Of a stretch of DNA of 64,000 nucleotides, positions 42,004 through 64,000 are shown piece by piece. This stretch comes from Phytoactinopolyspora limicola (lineage in GTDB: Bacteria > Actinomycetota > Actinomycetes > Jiangellales > Jiangellaceae), in assembly GCF_011320225.1 (NCBI RefSeq), contig NZ_JAAOEN010000002.1:558584-622583 (forward strand), read 5' to 3'. The notes under the pieces were generated by a model. The model was not told the origin of the DNA and did not search any database. It saw only the letters and a program-made list of their open reading frames with translations. Positions within the stretch are counted from its first letter, which is position 1; every line of letters starts with the position of its first letter. The translations under genes and the position numbers were made by a program.

Positions 42004-43053
42004 CTACACCAGGCAGTTCACCTCCGACGGCAAGTCGAACAGTAGGAACAACCGCGGATCTCCGAACGTCACGACGCAGCCCACACCCCCAGCACCGACT
42101 GTGAGCACCTGCAAGGCGACGGGACGGAAGGTGTCCGACCCGCCCTGCCGCAAATACACCCCAAACCCAGGCTGCCCATTGGCCTGGACCGGAATCAGCC
42201 GCAGGTCGCCCGGCCCAGCCGGACAGGCCGTGGCCACCAGGGTGCCGACGTCGGTGGGACCCCGGTACCACACCGGATCCGGCGGCATCTCCCAGACGAC
42301 GTCGTCGGTGCACAAACTCACGAGGGCGGCGACATCACGCTGCTCCATCGCGTGCTGGTACCGCTCGAGGAGGCGACGTTGCTCGGCCGGCTCCGGCTCG
42401 GCTACCTCGTCCTCGACCAGCCCGGCCCTGCGCAACCGGGCCCGGGCCCGCTGGCGAATGCCGTCAACCGCCGTGGCGGTGCTGCCCAGCGCCTCGGCGG
42501 CCTCGGCCGATCGCCATTTCAGGACGTCGCAGAGGATGACGACGGCGCGGTGCCGCGGCGGCAAATGCTGCAGAGCGGCCACGAAAGCCAGCCGGACGCT
42601 GGACCGCGCGGCCACCACCTCCGCCGGATCGGCGGCAACGTCCCACACCATCCCCGTCGGTATCGGCTCGAGCCACGGAATGTCCAGCTGCTGCCGCCCC
42701 GCCGCGACAGGTTGGGTACTCGGTCCGCCCAGGTCGGACGGCAACGGCCGGCGCTGACGGCTCTCCAGAGCGTTCAGGCACACCCGCGTGGCGATCCGGT
42801 ACAACCAAGTGCGCAGGCTCGAACGCTGCTCGAACGACCCGTAGGACCTCCAGGCACGCAGGAGTGTCTCCTGCACAGCATCCTCGGCGTCATGAACCGA
42901 ACCGAGCATGCGGTAACAATGCGCCATCAGCTCCGGCCGCAGGGGTATAGCCAGTCGGGTGAACTCCGCGCCGATCTCCGGGCTGGTTTCTCCCACAGCG
43001 ACGGCCGTACCGTCCCTGGTTGTCGCCATCTGGCCATCTCCGCTCATCATCAC
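42004..43053 (-). CDS. ECF sigma factor with C-terminal SnoaL-like domain (SigG/SigX5 type)
   Basis: 349 residues. Region 2: LMAHCYRMLGSVHDAEDAVQETLLRAWRS, with SSLRTWLYRIATRVCLNALE. Region 4: LQHLPPRHRAVVILCDVL, then SAEAAEALGSTATAVDGIRQRA. The C-terminal 120 residues (LERYQHAMEQRDVAALVSLCTDDVVWEMPP, WYRGPTDVG) form an NTF2/SnoaL-like domain that in related groups tunes sigma activity without a separate anti-sigma factor. Start ATG 43053; three Met codons in a row leave the exact one open. No partner gene nearby. Confidence 0.9.
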   Translation of the reverse strand: MMMSGDGQMATTRDGTAVAVGETSPEIGAEFTRLAIPLRPELMAHCYRMLGSVHDAEDAVQETLLRAWRSYGSFEQRSSLRTWLYRIATRVCLNALESRQRRPLPSDLGGPSTQPVAAGRQQLDIPWLEPIPTGMVWDVAADPAEVVAARSSVRLAFVAALQHLPPRHRAVVILCDVLKWRSAEAAEALGSTATAVDGIRQRARARLRRAGLVEDEVAEPEPAEQRRLLERYQHAMEQRDVAALVSLCTDDVVWEMPPDPVWYRGPTDVGTLVATACPAGPGDLRLIPVQANGQPGFGVYLRQGGSDTFRPVALQVLTVGAGGVGCVVTFGDPRLFLLFDLPSEVNCLV

Positions 43054-43171
43054 CGCTGCCCGCTGCCGGACAGCACGGTCTCCGCGCCGTCGCGGTCACG
43101 CGCCGCTGCCTCGCGCACACTTAGATAGACCGCGCCGGTCCGCGAAATTCAGCGGGCGGATGCGGATGACA

Positions 43172-43765
43172 TCAGCTGAGCAAGAAAGCGGCGGCGACGA
43201 TACCCGCTGCCATAGCCAGCCCGAGCACAGCGCCCGAGACGAACGGGAAACGTTCGGCCAGCGGGACGGCCCGGGGGAACCGTCGAGCGAGCCGGCGGGC
43301 CGTGACGGCGCCGTCCAGCTCCTCCGGCCGGACCTCCAGCCACCTGACCAGCCGGCGCATGTCATCAGGTGTCCAGTGTGGGCTCTTCAGCCGCGCGATA
43401 AGCCGTTCGCGTCGGTCGAGCACGATCAGGTTCCGGTTGGCCTGCGTGCCGGACGAGGCCGCGACCCGGATGCTCAGCACCGTGGCGATGTCGGAGCGGG
43501 CCCGGCTGCGTGGCCACCCGATCGGCCGCACGACCCGGATCTTCTCCGGCGTGACGACGATACGCTCCCGATGTAAGAACTGGGCCACTCCCGCCAACGT
43601 CAGCGCCACAACACTGGCAGCCATCACCCCGACCACGCCGTTGCGCACCACCACCAGCGATCCGAGCGCGCCGACCAGCACCGGGGTGCTCTTAACCAGC
43701 CTGCGATAACTCTGACCGGACGGGACCACCACCCGCTCCGACGGGCTGATCGCACGCGTGGCCAT
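43172..43765 (-). CDS. PH-domain (bPH2/DUF304-like) membrane protein
   Basis: 197 residues. Two hydrophobic helices near the N-terminus (LVGALGSLVVV; GVMAASVVALTLAGVAQFL) precede a bacterial PH-like fold (RERIVVTPEKIRVVRP, TVLSIRVAASSGTQANRNLIVLDRRERL). A last C-terminal helix follows (VSGAVLGLAMAAGIVAAAFLL). Function unknown. ATG 43765. Confidence 0.75.
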   Translation of the reverse strand: MATRAISPSERVVVPSGQSYRRLVKSTPVLVGALGSLVVVRNGVVGVMAASVVALTLAGVAQFLHRERIVVTPEKIRVVRPIGWPRSRARSDIATVLSIRVAASSGTQANRNLIVLDRRERLIARLKSPHWTPDDMRRLVRWLEVRPEELDGAVTARRLARRFPRAVPLAERFPFVSGAVLGLAMAAGIVAAAFLLS

Positions 43766-43901
43766 ACGCTGATCCTAGCCGGCGTTTCCTGGCTAGCTGG
43801 TTGAGTAGGAAGCAAGGCGGCCGCAAACCGAGTGGTGGATCCCCGCTCGAAACTGGCGTTCGCCAAGTGATGGGCCACCACGGCTGGTGACCGGGTCGTG
43901 A

Positions 43902-44297
43902 AACTGGGCGCCAGCGCGCGTGTTCGACCTGTTCACGAGCCCGGCGAGCCAGCGCGAGTTCTACGGCGACGACGCGCCGGGCTGGGTCGTCGACTCGCGC
44001 TGCGAGCTGCGCGTCGGCGGCGTATGGGAGATCGCCTTCGGCCCCTCGCCGGACGAGCTCTACCGGCACCGGCACGTGTTCGAGGCGATTGAGCGCCCTC
44101 GCCGCCTGCTGCTGGCCACGACCGAGACCCGCCTCGACGGGTCGACGCTCGCGTTCAGCACCGAGTTCACGTTCGCGCCCCGAGACGGGGCGACCCTGAT
44201 GACGATGGTTCAGTGGGGCTTCCCGTCCGACGAGTTGCGCGACGGGCACGGCCGCGGTCTGCCGCACGCGTTCGACCGGCTGGCACGGGCGTTGTAG
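43902..44297 (+). pseudogene. SRPBCC/AHSA1-domain protein, missing its N-terminus
   Basis: The readable protein begins in mid-domain (ARVFDLFTSPASQREFYGDD), and an in-frame TGA at 43899-43901 precludes an upstream extension. Normal members have about 15 residues of the first strand before 'VFDLFT'. The rest is intact: GGVWEIAFGPSPDELYRHRHVFE, MVQWGFPSDELRDGHGRGL. A GTG at 43920 could still start a shortened product. First of several decayed genes in a row. Confidence 0.75.
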
Positions 44298-44316
44298 GCC
44301 CGAGGAAGGAGGCCCC

Positions 44317-44649
44317 ATGGCGAAGTCCATCCTGTACATGTCGATGTCGCTCGACGGGTTCATCACCGGCCCCGGCGACGGCCCGGACAACGGGCTCGGA
44401 ACCGGCGGCAACCGGCTGCACGAGTGGCTCGGCGAGCCCGTCTCCAGGCTGCCACGCTTCGACCCGCCGGGGCTGAGTGGGCAGGTGTTCGCCGAGCTGA
44501 TGACGACGGTTGCGGTCGTCGTCGGCCGCAAGACGTTCGACTACGCCGGGCACTGGAGCGGCGACCACCACGGCGTGCCGATCGTCGAGCCCACGCGCGT
44601 GCTCGACGCGCCTGGCGTCACACACGTGCGCTACCGGGTTGTGTCATGA
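44317..44649 (+). pseudogene. Dihydrofolate-reductase-family protein with an internal in-frame deletion
   Basis: The N-terminal half is normal for the RibD C-terminal/DHFR-like family (SILYMSMSLDGFITGPGD, TVAVVVGRKTFDYAGHW). After DHHGVPIV it jumps directly to the family's very last strand (EPTRVLDAPGVTHVRYRV). About 80 residues that should separate these are missing while the frame is preserved. At 110 residues it is little more than half the normal length. Probably non-functional. Confidence 0.75.
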
Positions 44650-44672
44650 GTGGCCGTCAGACTGGAGTCTCG

Positions 44673-44795
44673 ATGTCCAAGGTGTGGTTCGTGACAGGAA
44701 GTTCGCACGGTCTGGGTCGCGCGCTCGTCGAGGTCGCGCTCGAAGCGGGTCATCGCGTAGCGGCGACGACGAGGCCTGGCGAGAAGTCAGTCTGA
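44673..44795 (+). pseudogene. N-terminal fragment of a short-chain dehydrogenase
   Basis: Forty codons encode the start of an SDR Rossmann fold (KVWFVTGSSHGLGRALVEVA, then GHRVAATTRPGE) and then stop. The catalytic Ser-Tyr-Lys region is gone. The break leads into sequence related to a transposase remnant. Confidence 0.8.
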
Positions 44796-44879
44796 GCGTC
44801 GCCGACGGACGCCGCTGACCGCCGATGCGCCGAAGAACCGCTCCAGACCCCCACATGTTCGAAGGGGTCAGTGGTCGTA

Positions 44880-45060
44880 GGCGGGGGTGGAGCCGGAGTC
44901 CCAAAAGGAACCGGGAGTGGCTGGCGCAGCAGCCGACCCACCCCGCCAGGTCCGTGCGTTTGACGGTCGGTCGGGAGCGCCCACACTCCATAGGTGTGGA
45001 ATCGATCAGCCAGACGCTGTCGGCCCACACGACGTCGGCCGGGTAGGAACGCCGATCGTG
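44880..45060 (-). pseudogene. IS982-like transposase remnant
   Basis: A short leftward stretch reads WADSVWLIDSTPMECGRSRP, then VKRTDLAGW...CASHSRF..GLRLH. This is the conserved core of IS982-family transposases of actinomycetes (DSTPxECGRS, SDLAGW, CASHSRFFWGLRLH). Sequence on both sides is out of frame or missing, and no terminal inverted repeats were found. This decayed insertion may have caused the truncations next to it. Boundaries are approximate. Confidence 0.7.
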
Positions 45061-45241
45061 GACGCCCTCACCGCGTCACACGCGGACCTTCACCCCTTGG
45101 AATCGGTCATCTAGGTAATACACCGTCACAGCCCGAAACCCCTCACTGACCTGCGCGAACGCTACACCCTCCCGGGATAGCCAGGAAGGTCCCGCCAGTG
45201 TCCGTAGCACCAGTGTCGTGCGCGACACCACGGTGGTCCGG
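45061..45241. other. Non-coding stretch between the IS remnant and rsrA
   Basis: No gene seen. A small hairpin GTGTCG-TGCG-CGACAC lies near 45213-45228 just past the rsrA stop and could end the sigR-rsrA transcript. Confidence 0.4.
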
Positions 45242-45541
45242 TCAGATACGAGGCAGCCCGCTGTCGGTGATGTCCTCGGTGACCTGTATCCGAACCTCGC
45301 GGATCTGCGCGAGAACCTTCATGCGCAGTGCATCGGGTGCATGCTCACACGCACAGGAACGGGCCAACACCTGCCGGACGGCACGTTCGAGATCGTACTT
45401 GGACAGGCAACTCCCACAGCCGTCCAGATGTGCTTCGATCTCGTCATACGTCAACGCGCGGCCGTCCAGCTCGTGGTCTAAGAACGCATAGACCCGGGCG
45501 AGAACCTCAGCGCAGTCGACATCGTCGTCGTTGCAGCTCAT
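45242..45541 (-). CDS. rsrA: Mycothiol-system anti-sigma factor RsrA-like
   Basis: 99-residue zinc-binding anti-sigma factor. The redox-switch motif H-x3-C-x2-C is present as HLDGCGSC, with a further upstream Cys in [21 protein letters not shown], as in RsrA. Under thiol oxidation it should lose zinc and release SigR. Its start overlaps the sigR stop by four bases, so sigma factor and inhibitor are translated together. Confidence 0.92.
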
Positions 45542-46260
45542 GACACTCGCGCACCCCCTGGTCCGCTATTTCCCGCCGGGACGAGCCCTCGCTCTCGAGC
45601 GTAATCTTCCAGCAGCTCGCGCAGCTGCCGCCGGCCACGGTGCAGTCTGGACATGACCGTGCCGATCGGCGTACCCATGATGTCGGCGATCTCTTTGTAG
45701 GGGAAACCTTCGACGTCGGCCAAGTAGACCGCGATCCGGAACTCCTCCGGGATCTGCTGAAGGGCATCCTTCACATCGGAGTCCGGCAAGTGAGACAGCG
45801 CCTCAGCCTCAGCCGAGATCAGCCCGCTGGAGGTGTGCGCCTCGGCCCGGGCCATCTGCCAGTCTTCGATCTCTTCCGTCGCACTCTGCTGCGGCTCACG
45901 CTGCTTCTTGCGATACGAGTTGATGAAGGTGTTCGTCAAGATCCGGTAAAGCCACGCCTTGAGGTTGGTTCCCTCTTTGAACTGGTGAAACGAAGCGTAG
46001 GCCTTGGTGAACGTCTCTTGCACGAGGTCTTCGGCGTCACTGGCATTGCGGGTCATCCGCAGTGCGGCTGAATAGAGCTGGTCAAGGAAGGGCAGCGCGT
46101 CGCGCTCGAATCGCTGCGCGCGCTGTTCGGCTGTCTCGGTCCCGGGCATCGCCTTCGATGGTATCGGCGTTCCGGCCTTCTTTGCTTTCCAGTCCTCCCA
46201 CTGAGGTGTGGCGAAGACCGGTCGGGGTGCCTCGAGGCAGGCCATACCAGGTGCACTCAC
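45538..46260 (-). CDS. sigR: ECF sigma factor SigR (thiol-oxidative stress)
   Basis: 240 residues as read from GTG 46260. Region 2 ([53 protein letters not shown]) and region 4 ([44 protein letters not shown]) match SigR/SigH. There are 37 extra residues before an internal ATG (46149, [17 protein letters not shown]), the usual short start. This resembles the long unstable SigR' isoform of streptomycetes, so two forms may exist. Forms an operon with rsrA. Confidence 0.92.
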
Positions 46261-57120: not shown

Positions 57121-57909
57121 GTGGCCCATGACGATGATCTCCGGTTCGCCCACGTCCTCGCCGACGACGCCGACGCTCAGACACTCAGCCGCTTCCGGGC
57201 GGCTGACCTCAAGGTCGAGACCAAAACCGACCACACACCGGTCACCGAAGCCGACCGCGGGGCCGAGGAGGCGATCCGCCGCACTCTGTCCCGGGCGCGT
57301 CCCCGCGACGGCATCGTCGGGGAGGAGTTCGGCAGCGATGGCTACGCTGCCCGCCGCTGGGTAGTGGACCCGATCGACGGCACCAAGAACTTCGTCCGGG
57401 GTGTACCCGTGTGGGCCACGCTGATCGGTCTCATGGTGGAGGACGAGGTGGTCGCCGGCGTGGTCTCCGCGCCCGCGCTGAACCGGCGCTGGTGGGCCGC
57501 CAAGGGCACGGGAGCGTGGACCGGCCGGTCATTGTCATCGGCCGCTAGGTGCCGCGTCTCCAGCGTCAGCACACTTGATGCGGCGTCGCTGTCTTACTCC
57601 GACGTCACCGAGTGGGAGAAGCACGGCCGGCTGCCGGAGTTCCTCGACCTGATCCGGGCATGCTGGCGGAGCCGTGGCTACGGGGATTTCTGGTCGTACA
57701 TGCTCCTCGCCGACGGCGCGGTCGACATCGCGACCGAACCAGAACTCCAGCTCTACGACATGGCGGCCTTGGTGCCCATCGTTGAGGAGGCGGGCGGCCG
57801 GTTCACCGGTCTCGATGGCAAGCCCGGTCCGCACAGTGGTGACGCCTTGGCCACCAACGGACTCCTCCACGACGAGGTGCTGGCTCGACTGACCGGCGCG
57901 ACACACTAA
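57121..57909 (+). CDS. hisN: Histidinol-phosphatase, inositol-monophosphatase type
   Basis: 262 residues. Motifs of the metal-dependent phosphatase family: VTEADRGAEEAIR, IVGEEFG, WVVDPIDGTKNFVRG, and C-terminal LYDMAALVPIVEEAGGRFTGLDG. Actinobacterial HisN of this family catalyses the last phosphate removal in histidine synthesis. GTG 57121, 18 bp after the palindrome. The 3' end overlaps that of the convergent MFS gene by four bases. Confidence 0.9.
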   Translation: MAHDDDLRFAHVLADDADAQTLSRFRAADLKVETKTDHTPVTEADRGAEEAIRRTLSRARPRDGIVGEEFGSDGYAARRWVVDPIDGTKNFVRGVPVWATLIGLMVEDEVVAGVVSAPALNRRWWAAKGTGAWTGRSLSSAARCRVSSVSTLDAASLSYSDVTEWEKHGRLPEFLDLIRACWRSRGYGDFWSYMLLADGAVDIATEPELQLYDMAALVPIVEEAGGRFTGLDGKPGPHSGDALATNGLLHDEVLARLTGATH

Positions 57910-59495
57910 TTCCCTGCCTCGATGTCGGTGTCCACCCGGGCTGACGCCTCGGTCTGGCTCGACTCCACCAGCCGGACCTTCCGTAACACGACGGTGATCA
58001 CTACCGCCGCGACGACAAGAAACACGCTGCCTATCGCCGCTGTGACGTTGATGCCCTGAACGAACGCATCTCTGGCGTCATCGAGCAATCGATCCGCGAG
58101 TCCGGCGGGCAGATCCTCTGCCACCGCGACGGCGCCCCCCAGGGTTCCACTCGCGGCCGCCGCGGCTTCGGCCGGGAGGTCACTGGACAGCGCGTTCCCG
58201 ACGCTGTTTTGGTAGACCGCCGTTGCGACGCTACCCAGGGTGGCGATCCCGAGGGCGCCGCCGAACTCGGAGCCGGTCTCGTTCATCGCCGCCGCTGCGC
58301 CCGCGTTTTCCGGCGGCGCGGTGGCGACGACCAGACCATAGGCGAGCGTGATGGCCATACCCATACCTAACCCGAGCACCGCGTATCCGGCGAGGACACT
58401 CGTTATCGAGTCGGCGGCGTCGAGCTGGGTCAACAAGCCGAATCCCACGGCCATCAGCGCCAGCCCGGTTCCGACGACGAATCCGGGCCGGACCCATCTG
58501 ACGACCGCGGTTCCCACGGCGATGCCGATCACGTTCGCCGTCACCATCGGCAGCATCCAGAGAGCCGCGACGAACGGCCGGTATCCGAGCACGAGCTGTA
58601 GATACTGCACGACCAAGAAGCCAACGCCCGCACTCGCCAAGATGAGGATGGTGTTCGAGCCGATCGACGCGGCGAAGGCCCGGTGCCGGAACAGCCCGAC
58701 GTCGATCAATGGATCAGGCCGCGACCGTTGCCGGCGGACGAAGAGATAACCGATCAGCAGGCCCGCCGCGACCGCGACCAATGGCGGCACCCGGAGACCG
58801 TCCTCCGCGAGATCCTCGGCCAGCTTCTTCAACCCCCAGATGGTGGGCAGGACCGCTGCCATTGACAGGGCCACGCTCACCAGGTCGAAACGGCCAGGGT
58901 TCGGATCGGAGTATTCGGGCAGTAGAAGCGGCGCCAGGATGAGCAGCAACACCATGATGGGGATGTTGATGAGGAAGACCGAACCCCACCAGAAGTGGTC
59001 GACGAGGATCCCGCCGATGATCGAACCGAGCGGGAAACCGCTGCTGAACGCACCTGTCCACACGGCAATCGCGGTGCGCCGCTGACGGTCGTCACGGAAC
59101 ATGTGGCGGATCAGTGCGAGTGTCGACGGTGCCAGCGTGGCACCACCGATGCCGAGCAACGCCCGAGCCGCGATCAGCATCTCCGAGGTGGTCGAGTAGG
59201 CAGCTAGCAGCGACGCCAGACCGAACGCCACGGCGCCGATGATCAGCAAGCGTCGGCGACCGATCCGATCGCCGAGGGTGCCCATGGTGAGCAGGAGGCC
59301 AGCCATGAGAAAGCCGTAGATATCCATGATCCAGAGGAGTTGCGTCCCCGTCGGCTCGAGATCGGCGCTCACTGCTGGCGCGGCCATGAACAGCACGGAT
59401 AAGTCCATCGAGGCGAGAAGTGCCGGCAGCGTGAGGACAGTGAGGCCGACCCATTCGCGGGTACCGGCCCGATCGGGTAGTAAGTCGTTGCCCAT
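57906..59495 (-). CDS. MFS drug exporter, DHA2 (EmrB/QacA) family, 14 helices
   Basis: 529 residues with about 14 transmembrane segments. Motif A GTLGDRIGRRRLL after helix 2, motif C-like GFPLGSIIGG, and the extra two central helices of DHA2. The opening LPALLASMDLSVLFMAAPAVSADL is typical. ATG 59495 is chosen; a longer frame would run through the operator and the TetR gene's start. Likely an efflux pump induced through the divergent TetR regulator. Confidence 0.92.
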   Translation of the reverse strand: MGNDLLPDRAGTREWVGLTVLTLPALLASMDLSVLFMAAPAVSADLEPTGTQLLWIMDIYGFLMAGLLLTMGTLGDRIGRRRLLIIGAVAFGLASLLAAYSTTSEMLIAARALLGIGGATLAPSTLALIRHMFRDDRQRRTAIAVWTGAFSSGFPLGSIIGGILVDHFWWGSVFLINIPIMVLLLILAPLLLPEYSDPNPGRFDLVSVALSMAAVLPTIWGLKKLAEDLAEDGLRVPPLVAVAAGLLIGYLFVRRQRSRPDPLIDVGLFRHRAFAASIGSNTILILASAGVGFLVVQYLQLVLGYRPFVAALWMLPMVTANVIGIAVGTAVVRWVRPGFVVGTGLALMAVGFGLLTQLDAADSITSVLAGYAVLGLGMGMAITLAYGLVVATAPPENAGAAAAMNETGSEFGGALGIATLGSVATAVYQNSVGNALSSDLPAEAAAAASGTLGGAVAVAEDLPAGLADRLLDDARDAFVQGINVTAAIGSVFLVVAAVVITVVLRKVRLVESSQTEASARVDTDIEAGN

Positions 59496-59503
59496 GCCCG
59501 AAC

Positions 59504-59517
59504 TATACAAACGTATA
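59504..59517. promoter_or_regulatory. TetR operator between MFS and TetR genes
   Basis: TATAC-AAAC-GTATA inverted repeat, only nine bases upstream of the MFS start and in an AT-rich patch that also holds possible -10 boxes for the leftward promoter. Confidence 0.6.
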
Positions 59518-59540
59518 ATACATATGTCTAGGACGCCCGT

Positions 59541-60170
59541 ATGGGTTACAGTACCGTCATGGGCCACCGCGAAGCACTGCTCGAAGGCGCCAAACGCTGC
59601 CTTTACGAGAAGGGGTACGCCCGGACCACGGCGCGCGACATCGTCGCGGCATCCGGAACCAACCTGGCGTCCATCGGCTACCACTTCGGCTCCAAGGAAG
59701 CTCTCCTCAATGCCGCATTAACCGAGGCGGTCACCGAGATGGGTCAGGAGTTGCTCCAGGCCACCTCCAAGGACATGACCGGGCCCAGCATCGAGGATCT
59801 GAGCCGCGGGTGGAGCAACGCCATCAACCGCCTGAACGACTTCCGCCCGCTCCTCATCGCCCAACTGGAGGCCTGGGCGCAGATCGAGCGCTCACCCGAG
59901 CTCAGATCCGAACTCGCCGCCCTTTACCGAGCCCAGACGGAGAACGGATTGGAGCACGCCAAAGCCGTCGCACCATGGCTGGACGATCGCAGCGCTCGCG
60001 CCGCGGTCGTCCTGACGAACGCCATCGCCGACGGGCTCATGGTGCAATGGCTGCTCGACCCCGACAACGGCCCCACTGGCGAAGACGTCGCCCTCGGCCT
60101 AGCGGCACTCACCAGCGTCGTAACCGACGACGACACGACGCCGCGCCGGCCGCGCGCGGACTCCGAATGA
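59541..60170 (+). CDS. TetR-family regulator of the adjacent MFS exporter
   Basis: 209 residues. Helix-turn-helix REALLEGAKRCLYEKGYARTTARDIVAASGTNLASIGYHFGSKEALL; C-terminal ligand domain with FRPLLIAQLEAWAQIERSPELRSELAALY. Start ATG 59541 or the in-frame ATG at 59559 (MGHREALLEG), which fits the family N-terminus better. Divergent from the exporter. Confidence 0.88.
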   Translation: MGYSTVMGHREALLEGAKRCLYEKGYARTTARDIVAASGTNLASIGYHFGSKEALLNAALTEAVTEMGQELLQATSKDMTGPSIEDLSRGWSNAINRLNDFRPLLIAQLEAWAQIERSPELRSELAALYRAQTENGLEHAKAVAPWLDDRSARAAVVLTNAIADGLMVQWLLDPDNGPTGEDVALGLAALTSVVTDDDTTPRRPRADSE

Positions 60171-60783
60171 CCTGAGTCCACGACGGACCATCCATCGCAC
60201 ACCATGGCGTCACTGAATCATGGCGAATGACCCACGTGACACACCTGCCGGACCACCTGCGACATTCGCTGCCATAACGGCGATATCAGGAAATGCCGGA
60301 CACGGCGCAAACCAGCAACCAATATCGCGCCACTCTCCACCAGCCTGGTGCCGCAAATCCCAGCCGAAGCAGACACACCTACGCCATTGAAGCGGCCCCC
60401 ATCGAGGGCCACGCCAGCATCCGGTCACACCGGCCGAACTATCGGGCATTCACCACCGATAGGTCGGACACACGATAACGGGCATACAGGGACACAGCGC
60501 CATCACCCCGAATCGTGAACGTCGGAAATGCCGGCATTGCCGGCGGTCATGGCTTGCAGCCGCCGGCGGAGGTGGCATCCGGCGGCACACCCGGGGCGAT
60601 CAGGCACGGGTGCGCTCTCACGGTGGTGGCAGCGCAGCCACGGTTTGCTCAGCCGCCGAACATCTAGAACACTCACCTAGAGCCTTGGATTGCGACAAAC
60701 ATCCCGCGATCGCGTCATAGCGGACGCATGGGGCCGTATTGGTAGGTGATCGGGGAATGCGGATGACCCGCGAGGAGGGTTGA
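60171..60783. other. Gene-poor region between TetR and the degenerate-GGDEF gene
   Basis: About 610 bp with no gene I can support. A stretch at 60512-60535 (CACCCCGAATCGTGAACGT) vaguely resembles one arm of the extragenic palindrome family but has no second arm. The right end supplies the GGAGGG ribosome site for the next gene. Confidence 0.4.
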
Positions 60784-61611
60784 GTGCACCACACAGCGGG
60801 GTGCCGCCGAGAGGGCGCGCCAGCCACGACGCTCGTGTCGTCGTGGCTGGCGCACGTTCGGGGCGATCGCGGCACCAACGCGGACCCGCTCCCGCCACCC
60901 GGCGTCAATGCGGTGATGGAGGCCCTATCCAGGCCGTGGCCGGCACCTTCATGTGTGGCCGAGGCGCTGGTGATGTTCGCGTGGGAGCGAGCCTCCGGAG
61001 GCTCCGACCTCACCTGCACCATCGACGAGGTCGATGCGCTCTGGGATGTCCTGGAGGCCGAAGGAGTAGGCACCGTCGGCCGCCATCAGGCCAGGCATTG
61101 GGTCACCGACGCGTGGGTCGACGCCGTGGCGAGTCAACGCGGAGCGCCGGGCATCGAACCACTGTCCGGACTTCACACCGTCAGCTACCTGTTCGGCCGC
61201 ATCCAGGAACTGGACCGACTGGCCGACTCCACCACGGCGCACCTCGTCCTGGTCATGATCCGCTGGCACGAACCCAAGGATCCATGGACCCGGATCTCAT
61301 GCATCCTCCAGGTTGCGTCGGCGCTACGATCACACGTGCGCACAGAAGCGACATTGAGCCAATTTGGAACACACTGTGCGTTTGCATTAATACCGGACGA
61401 TGGCCGCGCGCGACTCGAACGTGGCGTACTGTTGAAAACACTTGAAACGGGGGAACTCGGCACAATGGGGGTCAGCGTTGAAATCGTCCCACTACCAGAA
61501 GATCGGTCCCTTGTAACTGAACTAATCGTACGACTTAGGGACGGATCATTGGTTGGGGATCAATTTGGTCCGATTGGCTGGTTCCAACCCGATGGATACT
61601 CCCTAGACTGA
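60784..61611 (+). CDS. Uncharacterised protein with degenerate GGDEF-like C-terminal part
   Basis: 275 residues. The C-terminal half follows the layout of a diguanylate cyclase: a strand-helix with HLVLVMIRWHEPKDPW, then VASALRSHVRTEATLSQFGTHCAFALIP, where a real enzyme would read R-x-GGDEF. The GGDEF residues are absent, so no catalysis is expected. The N-terminal half (about 40-140) is helical and unrecognised. GTG 60784 after GGAGGG. It ends 31 bp before the giant ECF fusion gene and may be its operon partner. Confidence 0.6.
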   Translation: MHHTAGCRREGAPATTLVSSWLAHVRGDRGTNADPLPPPGVNAVMEALSRPWPAPSCVAEALVMFAWERASGGSDLTCTIDEVDALWDVLEAEGVGTVGRHQARHWVTDAWVDAVASQRGAPGIEPLSGLHTVSYLFGRIQELDRLADSTTAHLVLVMIRWHEPKDPWTRISCILQVASALRSHVRTEATLSQFGTHCAFALIPDDGRARLERGVLLKTLETGELGTMGVSVEIVPLPEDRSLVTELIVRLRDGSLVGDQFGPIGWFQPDGYSLD

Positions 61612-61642: not shown

Positions 61643-64000
61643 TTGACGACTCCAGCCGAAGCACCGAGCGACGCTCAGCTCATCGCGCGTACTCGCGATG
61701 GCGATATGGGCGCTTATGACGAGCTGTACCGACGCCACGTGGACGACGCGTCACGAGTTGCCCGAATTGTCACCAACAACAGCGACGAAGCCCAAGACGT
61801 CGTCGCCGAGGCGTTCACCCGGGTCCTTTCCCGGCTGCGCGAGGGCGGCGGGCCGGACACCGAACTCACCCCATACCTACGCACGGTCGTGCGGCGCCTA
61901 GCCATCGACCGGCACCGCTTCTCGCAGCGCGGCGACACGCCGGCCGACCCGTCGGTCCTCGAGGTCTTGCCGCGCACCGACGACCCCATGGCCCGAGCCA
62001 CCGACCGACAACTGGTGCGCCGGGCATTCGAGACCCTGCCCGACCGTTGGCAACAGGTTCTCTGGCACACCGAGATCGAGGGCCGGTCCCCAGCGTCTCT
62101 CGCGGCGACCCTCGGCAGCACACCCAACGCGGTGGCCGCCCTGGCATACCGGGCACGAGAAGGCCTGCGCCAGGCTTACCTGGCGGTCAACCTCTCCTCC
62201 GAGGTCCGCGCCGAGTGCCGTCCCTACGCGCCCAAGGTGGCTGCCTACGTCCGCGGGACCCTGTCAGCTCAGCACACCCGAGCTGTCACGGTCCACCTCA
62301 GCGAATGTGAGCACTGCCGGGAACGCCGCGACGAACTGTTGCTCCTCGTTTCCGACCTGCGTGGCACCTTGTGGCCCGCCCTTCTACTGCCCGCCGCGGT
62401 TGGTTCGGCAGTGTTGGCCGGCGCCGCGGGAGCGGCCGCCGTCGCTGGTGGCGGCGCGGCTGCCGGGGGGCAGGCCGCCACCGAGGCGGCCACCGCTACG
62501 GGTACGGCCGTCCTGACCGGTGTCGGTGCCGCCACAGCGGGAAGCTCCGGCGGCGGGGCGGGCGCCGGCGCCGCGGGAGCTGGTGCCGCGGGAGCTGGTG
62601 CCGGGGGAGCTGGTGCCGGGGCGAGTGCTGGCTCCGGTGCTTCCGGTGGCGGGGTAGCGGCATCTGTGGTCTCGCCCGGCCGGCTGGCCCGGCTCGGCAG
62701 CAAGACGCTCGCCGGCGCGGCCGGCGTCGTCGCCGCAGGCATCATCATCGCTGGTGCTGCCATGATGCTGAGCAACTCGTCCGACGATCCCCCGGAGGGC
62801 TCCGCTGCACCCCCGGTCGCGTCCCAGAACGACAGCGGCGGCAACGGCTCAGGCGATCCCGGTGGGGGTTGGGACGACGATCCCACCGACCCGGAAGAGT
62901 CGGACGCCACTGAAGATCCAGACGAGGCCGACGAACCGGTCGAGCCCGGCCCCGGCCGTACCCCGGGCACGCTGCCCATCAGCCGGCCGAACGACACCGA
63001 CCCCAGAACCGGCGAAACGCCGCCGCCGGGCTCTCCGTCGCCCACCGATCCGGACCGGCCCCCCTCGGACGACCCGACGGATGACCCCACGGACGACCCG
63101 ACCGACGATCCGACCGACGACCCAACGGAAGATCCCCCTCCACCCCCGGACGAAGACGAGCCGGAAACACCACCGTCCATCGACGCCGGCCCCAGCAACA
63201 CCACCGTCCGCGCGGGCCAGACGGCCAACCTGTCGGTCCAAGTGTCCGGCAACCCGCGCCCGTCGCTCACCTGGCAGTACCGTGACGGCTCGACGTCGGC
63301 CGGTGCCGACACGACACCCGGGGCCCGCTCGGCGTCGATGGCCAGCAGCGGCTGGCGCGACATCGACGGAGCGACCTCGTCCACTCTTCGGGTCTCGGCC
63401 CAACCAGAGCTCGACGGTCGCCAGTACCGCGTCGTGGCCCGCAACACCCACGGCACCAGCACCACGGATCCAGCGGTGCTGACAGTCCACTACGCCCCGC
63501 AGGTGACGGGTCATCCGGACGCTCGCGAAACCAACGAGGGCGGCAAGGTCACCTTCACCGCGACCGCCCGGGCCAACCCCGCTCCCAGCAGCGTCACCTG
63601 GCAACGCCGTGAACGCGGTGGATCATGGCGAGACATGGGGAAAGGTTCTCTCGGCTCTGGGGGCACCCGCGCCACGCTGGAGCTCACCGACATCAAGCGC
63701 TCGTTGAACGACCACGAGTACCGCGCGGTGTTCACCAACCAGGTTGGCACCTCGAACAGCAACTTCGCCCGACTCAGCGTCTTGTGGGCGCCCGACGTGG
63801 CCAACGGGCCGAGCGATGCCAGTGCCGCCACCGGCGACCAAGCCACCTTCCAGGCCAAAGCCACCGCGGGCAACCCCGGAAACACCGAGTTCCGGTGGCA
63901 GGAGAAACCCCCGGGAGGTTCGTGGCGTGACCTCGGCGGATGGCAGCCAGGTACCACGGCCAGCCGCCGGGTCGACGTGACGAGCACCAACCAGGACGGC
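61643..64000 (+). CDS. ECF sigma factor fused to zinc-finger, membrane anchor and Ig-like ectodomain (3' end outside window)
   Basis: One uninterrupted frame of 786 codons, still open at the window edge. An in-frame TAA (61628-61630) precedes the only usable start, TTG 61643, with AAAGGGA upstream. Residues 10-170 are an ECF sigma factor: AYDELYRRHVDDASRVARIV, DEAQDVVAEAFTRVLSRL, YLRTVVRRLAIDRHR (region 2), and LPDRWQQVLWHTEIEG, SPASLAATLGSTPNAVAALA (region 4). Then comes a zinc-finger anti-sigma-like motif HLSECEHC (His218, Cys222, Cys225). An Ala/Gly-rich hydrophobic stretch (about 245-340), a transmembrane helix (about 357-378, VVAAGIIIAGAAMML) and an acidic linker with repeated DDPT follow. 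At least three Ig-like domains then run from about 512 (repeated W-x-DG/GSWRDxxG and YRVVARN, YRAVFTN). The region-2/4 and HC2 layout resembles known membrane-linked ECF classes of actinobacteria; Ig domains as ectodomain are unusual to my knowledge. Confidence 0.88.
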   Translation, partial: MTTPAEAPSDAQLIARTRDGDMGAYDELYRRHVDDASRVARIVTNNSDEAQDVVAEAFTRVLSRLREGGGPDTELTPYLRTVVRRLAIDRHRFSQRGDTPADPSVLEVLPRTDDPMARATDRQLVRRAFETLPDRWQQVLWHTEIEGRSPASLAATLGSTPNAVAALAYRAREGLRQAYLAVNLSSEVRAECRPYAPKVAAYVRGTLSAQHTRAVTVHLSECEHCRERRDELLLLVSDLRGTLWPALLLPAAVGSAVLAGAAGAAAVAGGGAAAGGQAATEAATATGTAVLTGVGAATAGSSGGGAGAGAAGAGAAGAGAGGAGAGASAGSGASGGGVAASVVSPGRLARLGSKTLAGAAGVVAAGIIIAGAAMMLSNSSDDPPEGSAAPPVASQNDSGGNGSGDPGGGWDDDPTDPEESDATEDPDEADEPVEPGPGRTPGTLPISRPNDTDPRTGETPPPGSPSPTDPDRPPSDDPTDDPTDDPTDDPTDDPTEDPPPPPDEDEPETPPSIDAGPSNTTVRAGQTANLSVQVSGNPRPSLTWQYRDGSTSAGADTTPGARSASMASSGWRDIDGATSSTLRVSAQPELDGRQYRVVARNTHGTSTTDPAVLTVHYAPQVTGHPDARETNEGGKVTFTATARANPAPSSVTWQRRERGGSWRDMGKGSLGSGGTRATLELTDIKRSLNDHEYRAVFTNQVGTSNSNFARLSVLWAPDVANGPSDASAATGDQATFQAKATAGNPGNTEFRWQEKPPGGSWRDLGGWQPGTTASRRVDVTSTNQDG

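Follow-up and report, generated by a model that had tools for sequence, protein, structure and literature searches.

A predicted one-protein sigma receptor of Jiangellaceae: a variant of membrane-tethered ECF factors with an Ig–beta-trefoil ectodomain

How might the state of a bacterial surface be conveyed to promoters by a single polypeptide? The simplest path from the cell surface to a promoter is predicted to run through ECF sigma factors that combine a fused anti-sigma domain with outer domains, and to our knowledge almost none of them has a known target or ligand. The window (the whole stretch of 64,000 nucleotides of Phytoactinopolyspora limicola DNA analysed here) raises this question through a gene that starts with TTG at position 61643 and whose frame is still open at the window end. 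A preliminary description had read in this single frame sigma regions 2 and 4, a zinc finger, a membrane segment and an Ig ectodomain, with which Pfam, NCBIfam and the full-length gene agree: extended into the assembly past the window, as had been proposed, the frame reaches its stop codon after 957 aa (L009:8227-11100) with no internal stop, and it discloses a C-terminal beta-trefoil beyond the window end. The start assignment is supported because the Phytoactinopolyspora genome and its near relatives have TTG, and Jiangella has GTG, at an equivalent site. From N- to C-terminus, the protein comprises ECF sigma-2/sigma-4, zf-HC2, one transmembrane (TM) helix, an acidic linker rich in Pro and Asp, three Ig domains of the I-set type and a ricin-B beta-trefoil. 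The features on and before the gene are listed below; two of them, the promoter and the partner gene, are absent from the preliminary description:

60712..60738, plus strand: predicted autoregulatory promoter GCGTCAT-N16-CGTA before the two-gene operon, one mismatch to the conserved motif
60784..61611, plus strand: conserved partner gene, 275 aa, of a family without Pfam match, 31 bp upstream of the sigma gene
61643..64000, plus strand: sigma-receptor gene, window portion (786 of 957 aa; the rest runs to L009:11100)
61724..61930, plus strand: sigma-70 region 2 (PF04542 Sigma70_r2, aa 28-96, 37.6 bits, above cut-off)
62009..62161, plus strand: sigma-70 region 4 (PF08281 Sigma70_r4_2, aa 123-173, 24.2 bits, just under the cut-off of 25.7)
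62216..62320, plus strand: built-in anti-sigma-like zinc finger (PF13490 zf-HC2, aa 192-226, 26.2 bits, above cut-off)
62366..62677, plus strand: weakly hydrophobic LWPALLLP and Ala/Gly-rich stretch, probably not spanning, less hydrophobic than the TM helix
62708..62770, plus strand: TM helix, aa 356-376, N-terminus in and C-terminus out, the best hydrophobic segment
62771..63166, plus strand: acidic linker rich in Pro and Asp, containing a (DDPT)n repeat
63170..63487, plus strand: Ig domain 1, I-set type, without cysteines (PF13927 (Ig_3)/PF07679, from aa 510; AlphaFold model of the orthologue L044; Foldseek)
63491..63781, plus strand: Ig domain 2 (Pfam, L044 AlphaFold model, Foldseek)
63785..64000, plus strand: Ig domain 3, truncated by the window end (Pfam, L044 AlphaFold model)
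L009:10663-11097, outside the window: C-terminal ricin-B-type beta-trefoil

Overall, we consider it likely that this gene encodes a membrane-anchored receptor-sigma with an outer Ig–trefoil antenna, ligand-triggered cleavage and a GCGTCAT-N16-CGTC regulon. Domain order, conservation, topology indicators, the promoter motif and its recurrent targets were computed, and we infer zinc-finger inhibition, a glycan ligand, proteolytic release and this sigma as the reader of the motif. The sigma part and its fused zinc finger would lie in the cytoplasm, the finger holding sigma off RNA polymerase; one helix would cross the membrane, and the long acidic linker would take the three Ig domains and the beta-trefoil tip through the wall. 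Binding of a surface ligand, most likely a glycan, would lead to cleavage at or near the membrane, and the freed sigma would turn to the GCGTCAT-N16-CGTC promoters of its own operon with the 275-aa partner, of the adjacent whiB, of an MFS exporter and of a small basic protein. Ligand sensing and proteolytic activation are borrowed in this scheme from known relatives, and the promoter step is a prediction from sequence.

With regard to the core, the NCBIfam sigma70-ECF model spans aa 24-178 above its cut-off, sigma-2 and sigma-4 are present without sigma-1.1 or sigma-3, and the best Foldseek matches are ECF sigma factors, all of which identify an ECF protein. The HxxxCxxC motif noticed earlier is H218-C222-C225, joined by C192 as fourth ligand in the C/H-x(24-26)-HxxxCxxC arrangement of zf-HC2/ZAS domains, and all four residues are invariant in 24 homologues. 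The AlphaFold model built for sigma and the zinc finger together resembles ECF sigma factors, some of them solved with anti-sigma partners (Foldseek); at a pLDDT of 75 and a pTM of 0.45 its domain arrangement is unreliable, and masking of sigma by the finger is not visible in it. That the finger inhibits sigma is something that we would expect by analogy with known relatives.

Does such a protein represent a new kind? That actinobacterial ECF groups with zinc-finger and membrane extensions are known had been stated in the preliminary description, and the literature bears this out for ECF48, ECF52 and ECF53, for which a review expects the same activation by proteolytic release (PMC8999054), and for SCO4117 of Streptomyces coelicolor, the first characterised ECF52 member, in which its authors distinguished sigma, zinc-finger, transmembrane, Pro-rich and carbohydrate-binding parts and suggested proteolytic release (PMC5826349). 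ECF52 and ECF53 are moreover predicted to carry carbohydrate-binding and glycosyl hydrolase domains (PMC10766802). Because the ECF52/SCO4117 literature describes a matching architecture and an expected proteolytic release, our protein appears to be a variant of the ECF52-like kind already known, namely membrane-tethered ECF factors with a fused anti-sigma domain. Both share sigma-2/sigma-4, a zinc finger, a TM region, a Pro-rich linker and an outer carbohydrate-binding-type domain, in the same order, with a beta-trefoil, whose sugar binding is putative, replacing the NPCBM domain. The Jiangellaceae protein differs in its outer part (three Ig domains and a beta-trefoil, vs. NPCBM in the SCO4117 kind) and in its separate tree branch. 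The published SCO4117 promoter motif is CSGYN-17-SRHA (PMC5826349); no GCGTCAT-type site was found upstream of SCO4117-like genes, and by promoter motif the protein does not fall with ECF52. A more distant parallel is IutY (ECF243) of Pseudomonas putida, which unites sigma with a membrane-bound anti-sigma part and is activated by proteolysis (PMC8999054); it differs in its iron/xenosiderophore signalling, its Gram-negative host and its family. What would be new here, judging by sequence, is the ectodomain, the sigma lineage, and the promoter and regulon prediction; our literature search found no paper in which an ECF factor is said to carry Ig or ricin domains, an absence that is not proof.

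A GTDB genome scan yielded 12 Jiangellaceae-type loci, from Phytoactinopolyspora, Jiangella, Haloactinopolyspora and one MAG, and the plan of sigma, zinc finger, TM helix, linker, three Ig domains and trefoil is common to all loci complete enough to read. Strong matches, some divided among contigs, occur in 11 of the 13 Jiangellaceae genomes (source genome counted), and the two without a full-length gene are reduced (2.3 and 1.7 Mb, 81% and 75% complete); the search for the same fusion in related genomes that had been suggested thus finds it throughout the family apart from these two. In the phylogeny, the Jiangellaceae, Nocardioides and Streptomyces proteins (SCO4117-like and ricin-B) group together, separately from most other ECFs of the source genome, with moderate support (joining branch 81/81, long branches); the SCO4117-like sequences count among the closest relatives, and Jiangellaceae and Nocardioides each sit on their own branches. 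The same core carries other ectodomains in these relatives, be they cadherin-like, beta-trefoil or NPCBM.

The nearest relatives outside Jiangellaceae are the Nocardioides proteins (L054-L063), which share a core 41-45% identical, the promoter motif and a homologous partner gene; in them, a Big_9/cadherin-like ectodomain takes the place of Ig and trefoil, and the partner gene is divergent. The SCO4117-like proteins (L084-L088), so termed by architecture and NPCBM domain and not by comparison with the SCO4117 sequence, are 38-41% identical over sigma and zinc finger, and in them, too, an Ala/Gly stretch precedes the helix. They were taken from Streptomyces other than NEAU-Y11, and the NPCBM genes of Streptomyces sp. 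NEAU-Y11, considered as ECF52 orthologues, were rejected, as they are not sigma fusions. NEAU-Y11 itself encodes several paralogues with ricin-B-type tips on a similar sigma/zinc-finger core (L064, L077, L080, L082, L083); these share the order of sigma, zinc finger and TM helix and the beta-trefoil tip with the Jiangellaceae protein, but lack Ig domains, occur as several paralogues per genome and cluster with the SCO4117-like proteins.

Within the source genome, a second one-protein candidate was noticed (L011:733-2724, minus strand, in G000:C8; 664 aa), composed of sigma, an HxxxCxxC motif, a hydrophobic helix, a Pro/acidic linker and a BACON-type domain, with similar matches in two further genomes (G001 and G003). 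Elsewhere, a related sigma plus zinc-finger-like ORF (L029/L033; G000:C28:10277-11248, minus strand), in which the match runs across two TGA codons, is possibly a decayed receptor-sigma. Three stand-alone sigma paralogues of the same lineage (L031, L032, L034) have 198-220 aa, no extension and 34-41% identity. Two more ECF genes lie in the window at ~42700-46000; one of them encodes 363 aa, and its C-terminal extension resembles SnoaL on visual inspection.

What, then, could the outer part sense? The DPT-repeat acidic linker reported earlier is borne out, its DDPT units being encoded by a 12-bp tandem array (L009:9650-9713; window 63066-63129). For the domains beyond it, the earlier reading of three or more Ig domains holds as to their Ig-like nature and narrows to exactly three in number: the AlphaFold model of the L044 ectodomain (mean pLDDT 88) comprises three beta-sandwiches followed by a C-terminal domain rich in beta structure, and the Ig tandem matches those of Robo1 and titin in Foldseek, with Robo1 also retrieved by sequence search (E 4.5e-13). 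At the tip, Pfam Ricin_B_lectin matches aa 925-956 (30.0 bits vs. a cut-off of 29), two such stretches are recognized in the orthologue L045 (40.1 bits), and the three Cys pairs agree with a ricin-B beta-trefoil, a fold defined by three repeats with Cys pairs and QxW-type motifs. Because this tip is of the ricin-B type, a glycan is likelier than the other ligand classes left open in the preliminary description, and we favour it as the most likely class, bearing in mind that a beta-trefoil fold alone is no proof of sugar binding. Alternatively, the sigma might be constitutively tethered or stress-sensing, its ectodomain anchoring the protein or feeling wall tension and general envelope stress releasing the sigma part. 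The long acidic linker would suit such a device, as would a cysteine-free Ig tandem reminiscent of titin-type elastic arrays and the fast divergence of the ectodomain, only 38-53% identical among Jiangellaceae next to a sigma/zinc-finger part at 80-91%. Yet the trefoil tip and its Cys pairs are conserved throughout Jiangellaceae, and independent lineages bear other domains common in binding roles (NPCBM and ricin-type), on which grounds we deem mere tethering or stress sensing unlikely.

We return to the ligand-gated receptor-sigma for its output. In all 11 Jiangellaceae loci compared, an orthologue of the 275-aa partner adjoins sigma and whiB follows. The homologue of this partner in Nocardioides is the gene divergent from sigma (hhalign probability 96.5). 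In both families the partner lies behind the shared promoter motif, and it has no match to a Pfam family. By-eye cues to a GGDEF identity (DPLSGL..., LVPDD) were discarded, Pfam, a PDB profile search and hhalign all being negative (in hhalign, probability 0.1 or less against four source-genome GGDEF loci, three with a usable domain). Upstream of the sigma operon, a divergent pair of MFS transporter and TetR-like genes (window 57906-60170) recurs in several Jiangellaceae.

A motif of two boxes, GCGTCAT-N16-CGTC (with TGTC as the second box at some sites), precedes whiB in 12/12 aligned loci and the two-gene sigma operon in 12/12, exactly in eight and with one mismatch in four, including the source genome. 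In Nocardioides, it lies ~30-45 nt before the sigma start in most loci and again before the divergent gene; across these four types of sites (sigma operon, whiB, Nocardioides sigma, Nocardioides divergent gene), information is high in both boxes and low in the fixed 16-bp spacer. As the motif is not above chance within the window alone (2 found vs. 2.67 expected), the case for a promoter rests on comparison across genomes, where matches number 77 vs. 8 for a reversed-pattern control in 13 Jiangellaceae genomes and 35 vs. 3 in seven Nocardioides genomes, an enrichment of about tenfold. Recurrent downstream genes are an MFS exporter in eight genomes, including the source genome (G000:C14:71517), and a basic protein of 54-57 aa in six Jiangellaceae genomes (L102, L105, L112, L114, L098, L099), whose KRGRHRGE...RRARR sequence follows directly after the GCGTCAT promoter; several matches outside the recurrent targets look like chance. 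Given that the motif precedes the sigma operon, whiB and recurrent targets, and in Nocardioides the sigma, divergent and STAS genes, we predict an autoregulated regulon comprising the sigma operon, the flanking whiB, the MFS exporter and the small basic protein. The STAS genes encode a 102-aa protein of the anti-anti-sigma type behind the motif in five Nocardioides genomes (L158, L137, L149, L150, L140), which may point to a connection with a further sigma circuit.

It could be objected that another ECF factor reads GCGTCAT-N16-CGTC and that the sigma receptor is its target rather than the reader, in a genome with 63 Sigma70_r2 matches that include close stand-alone paralogues. However, the motif accompanies the related sigma in two families despite differing gene order, like autoregulated ECF genes; among the source-genome matches, no exact one lies beside the stand-alone paralogues; and nearly all motif sites are missing from the two reduced Jiangellaceae genomes in which the full-length gene is absent (0 and 1 matches). 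Another reader thus seems to us quite improbable.

The topology indicators point to an ectodomain on the outer face of the membrane. The hydrophobic helix of the preliminary description is confirmed as the top-scoring segment, and the charge around it is net +3 before and -3 after, with the same sense in nearly all homologues. The conserved cysteines are only the three of the zinc finger and six, in three pairs, of the trefoil, and the last (third) trefoil pair is lost jointly in Jiangella and the MAG L051; cysteines that are kept and lost in pairs are what one would expect of disulfides on the extracellular side. A second span through the Ala/Gly-rich stretch, which had left the topology open, is rejected: its ~80 residues are a Phytoactinopolyspora expansion, mostly missing in Jiangella and Haloactinopolyspora. 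If the segment 242-267 crossed as well, the Ig domains and trefoil would be cytoplasmic, and the weakly hydrophobic LWPALLLP... does precede the main helix in all homologues; this segment nevertheless scores lower than the main helix, positive residues come after it in Jiangella and Nocardioides, the flanks of the main helix are positive inside and negative outside, and the trefoil cysteines act like disulfide pairs, which makes two spans very improbable. The segment may still touch or enter the membrane, and the sequence evidence resolves in favour of an Ig plus trefoil ectodomain outside the cell. Finally, a frameshift or misassembly fusing a sigma gene with a surface protein gene, the outcome named beforehand as refuting and conceivable for a repeat-containing gene that leaves the window, can be practically dismissed, since orthologues from many independent genomes are full-length in one frame.

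Taken together, these observations would fit a broader picture, to which we give clearly less than even credence, of modular actinobacterial one-protein sigma receptors with exchangeable adhesin- or lectin-type ectodomains, of which the Jiangellaceae Ig–beta-trefoil form may couple the reading of glycans or neighbouring surfaces to WhiB and exporter control. The exchange of ectodomains among genera suggests that one output module has been reused for differing surface signals. With a predicted promoter, a few target genes whose sites are shared by several genera, and an ectodomain compact enough for ligand screens, receptor-sigma activation becomes directly testable in this family. If the proposal is true, the receptor would release its sigma part and thereby directly govern a WhiB regulator and an exporter.
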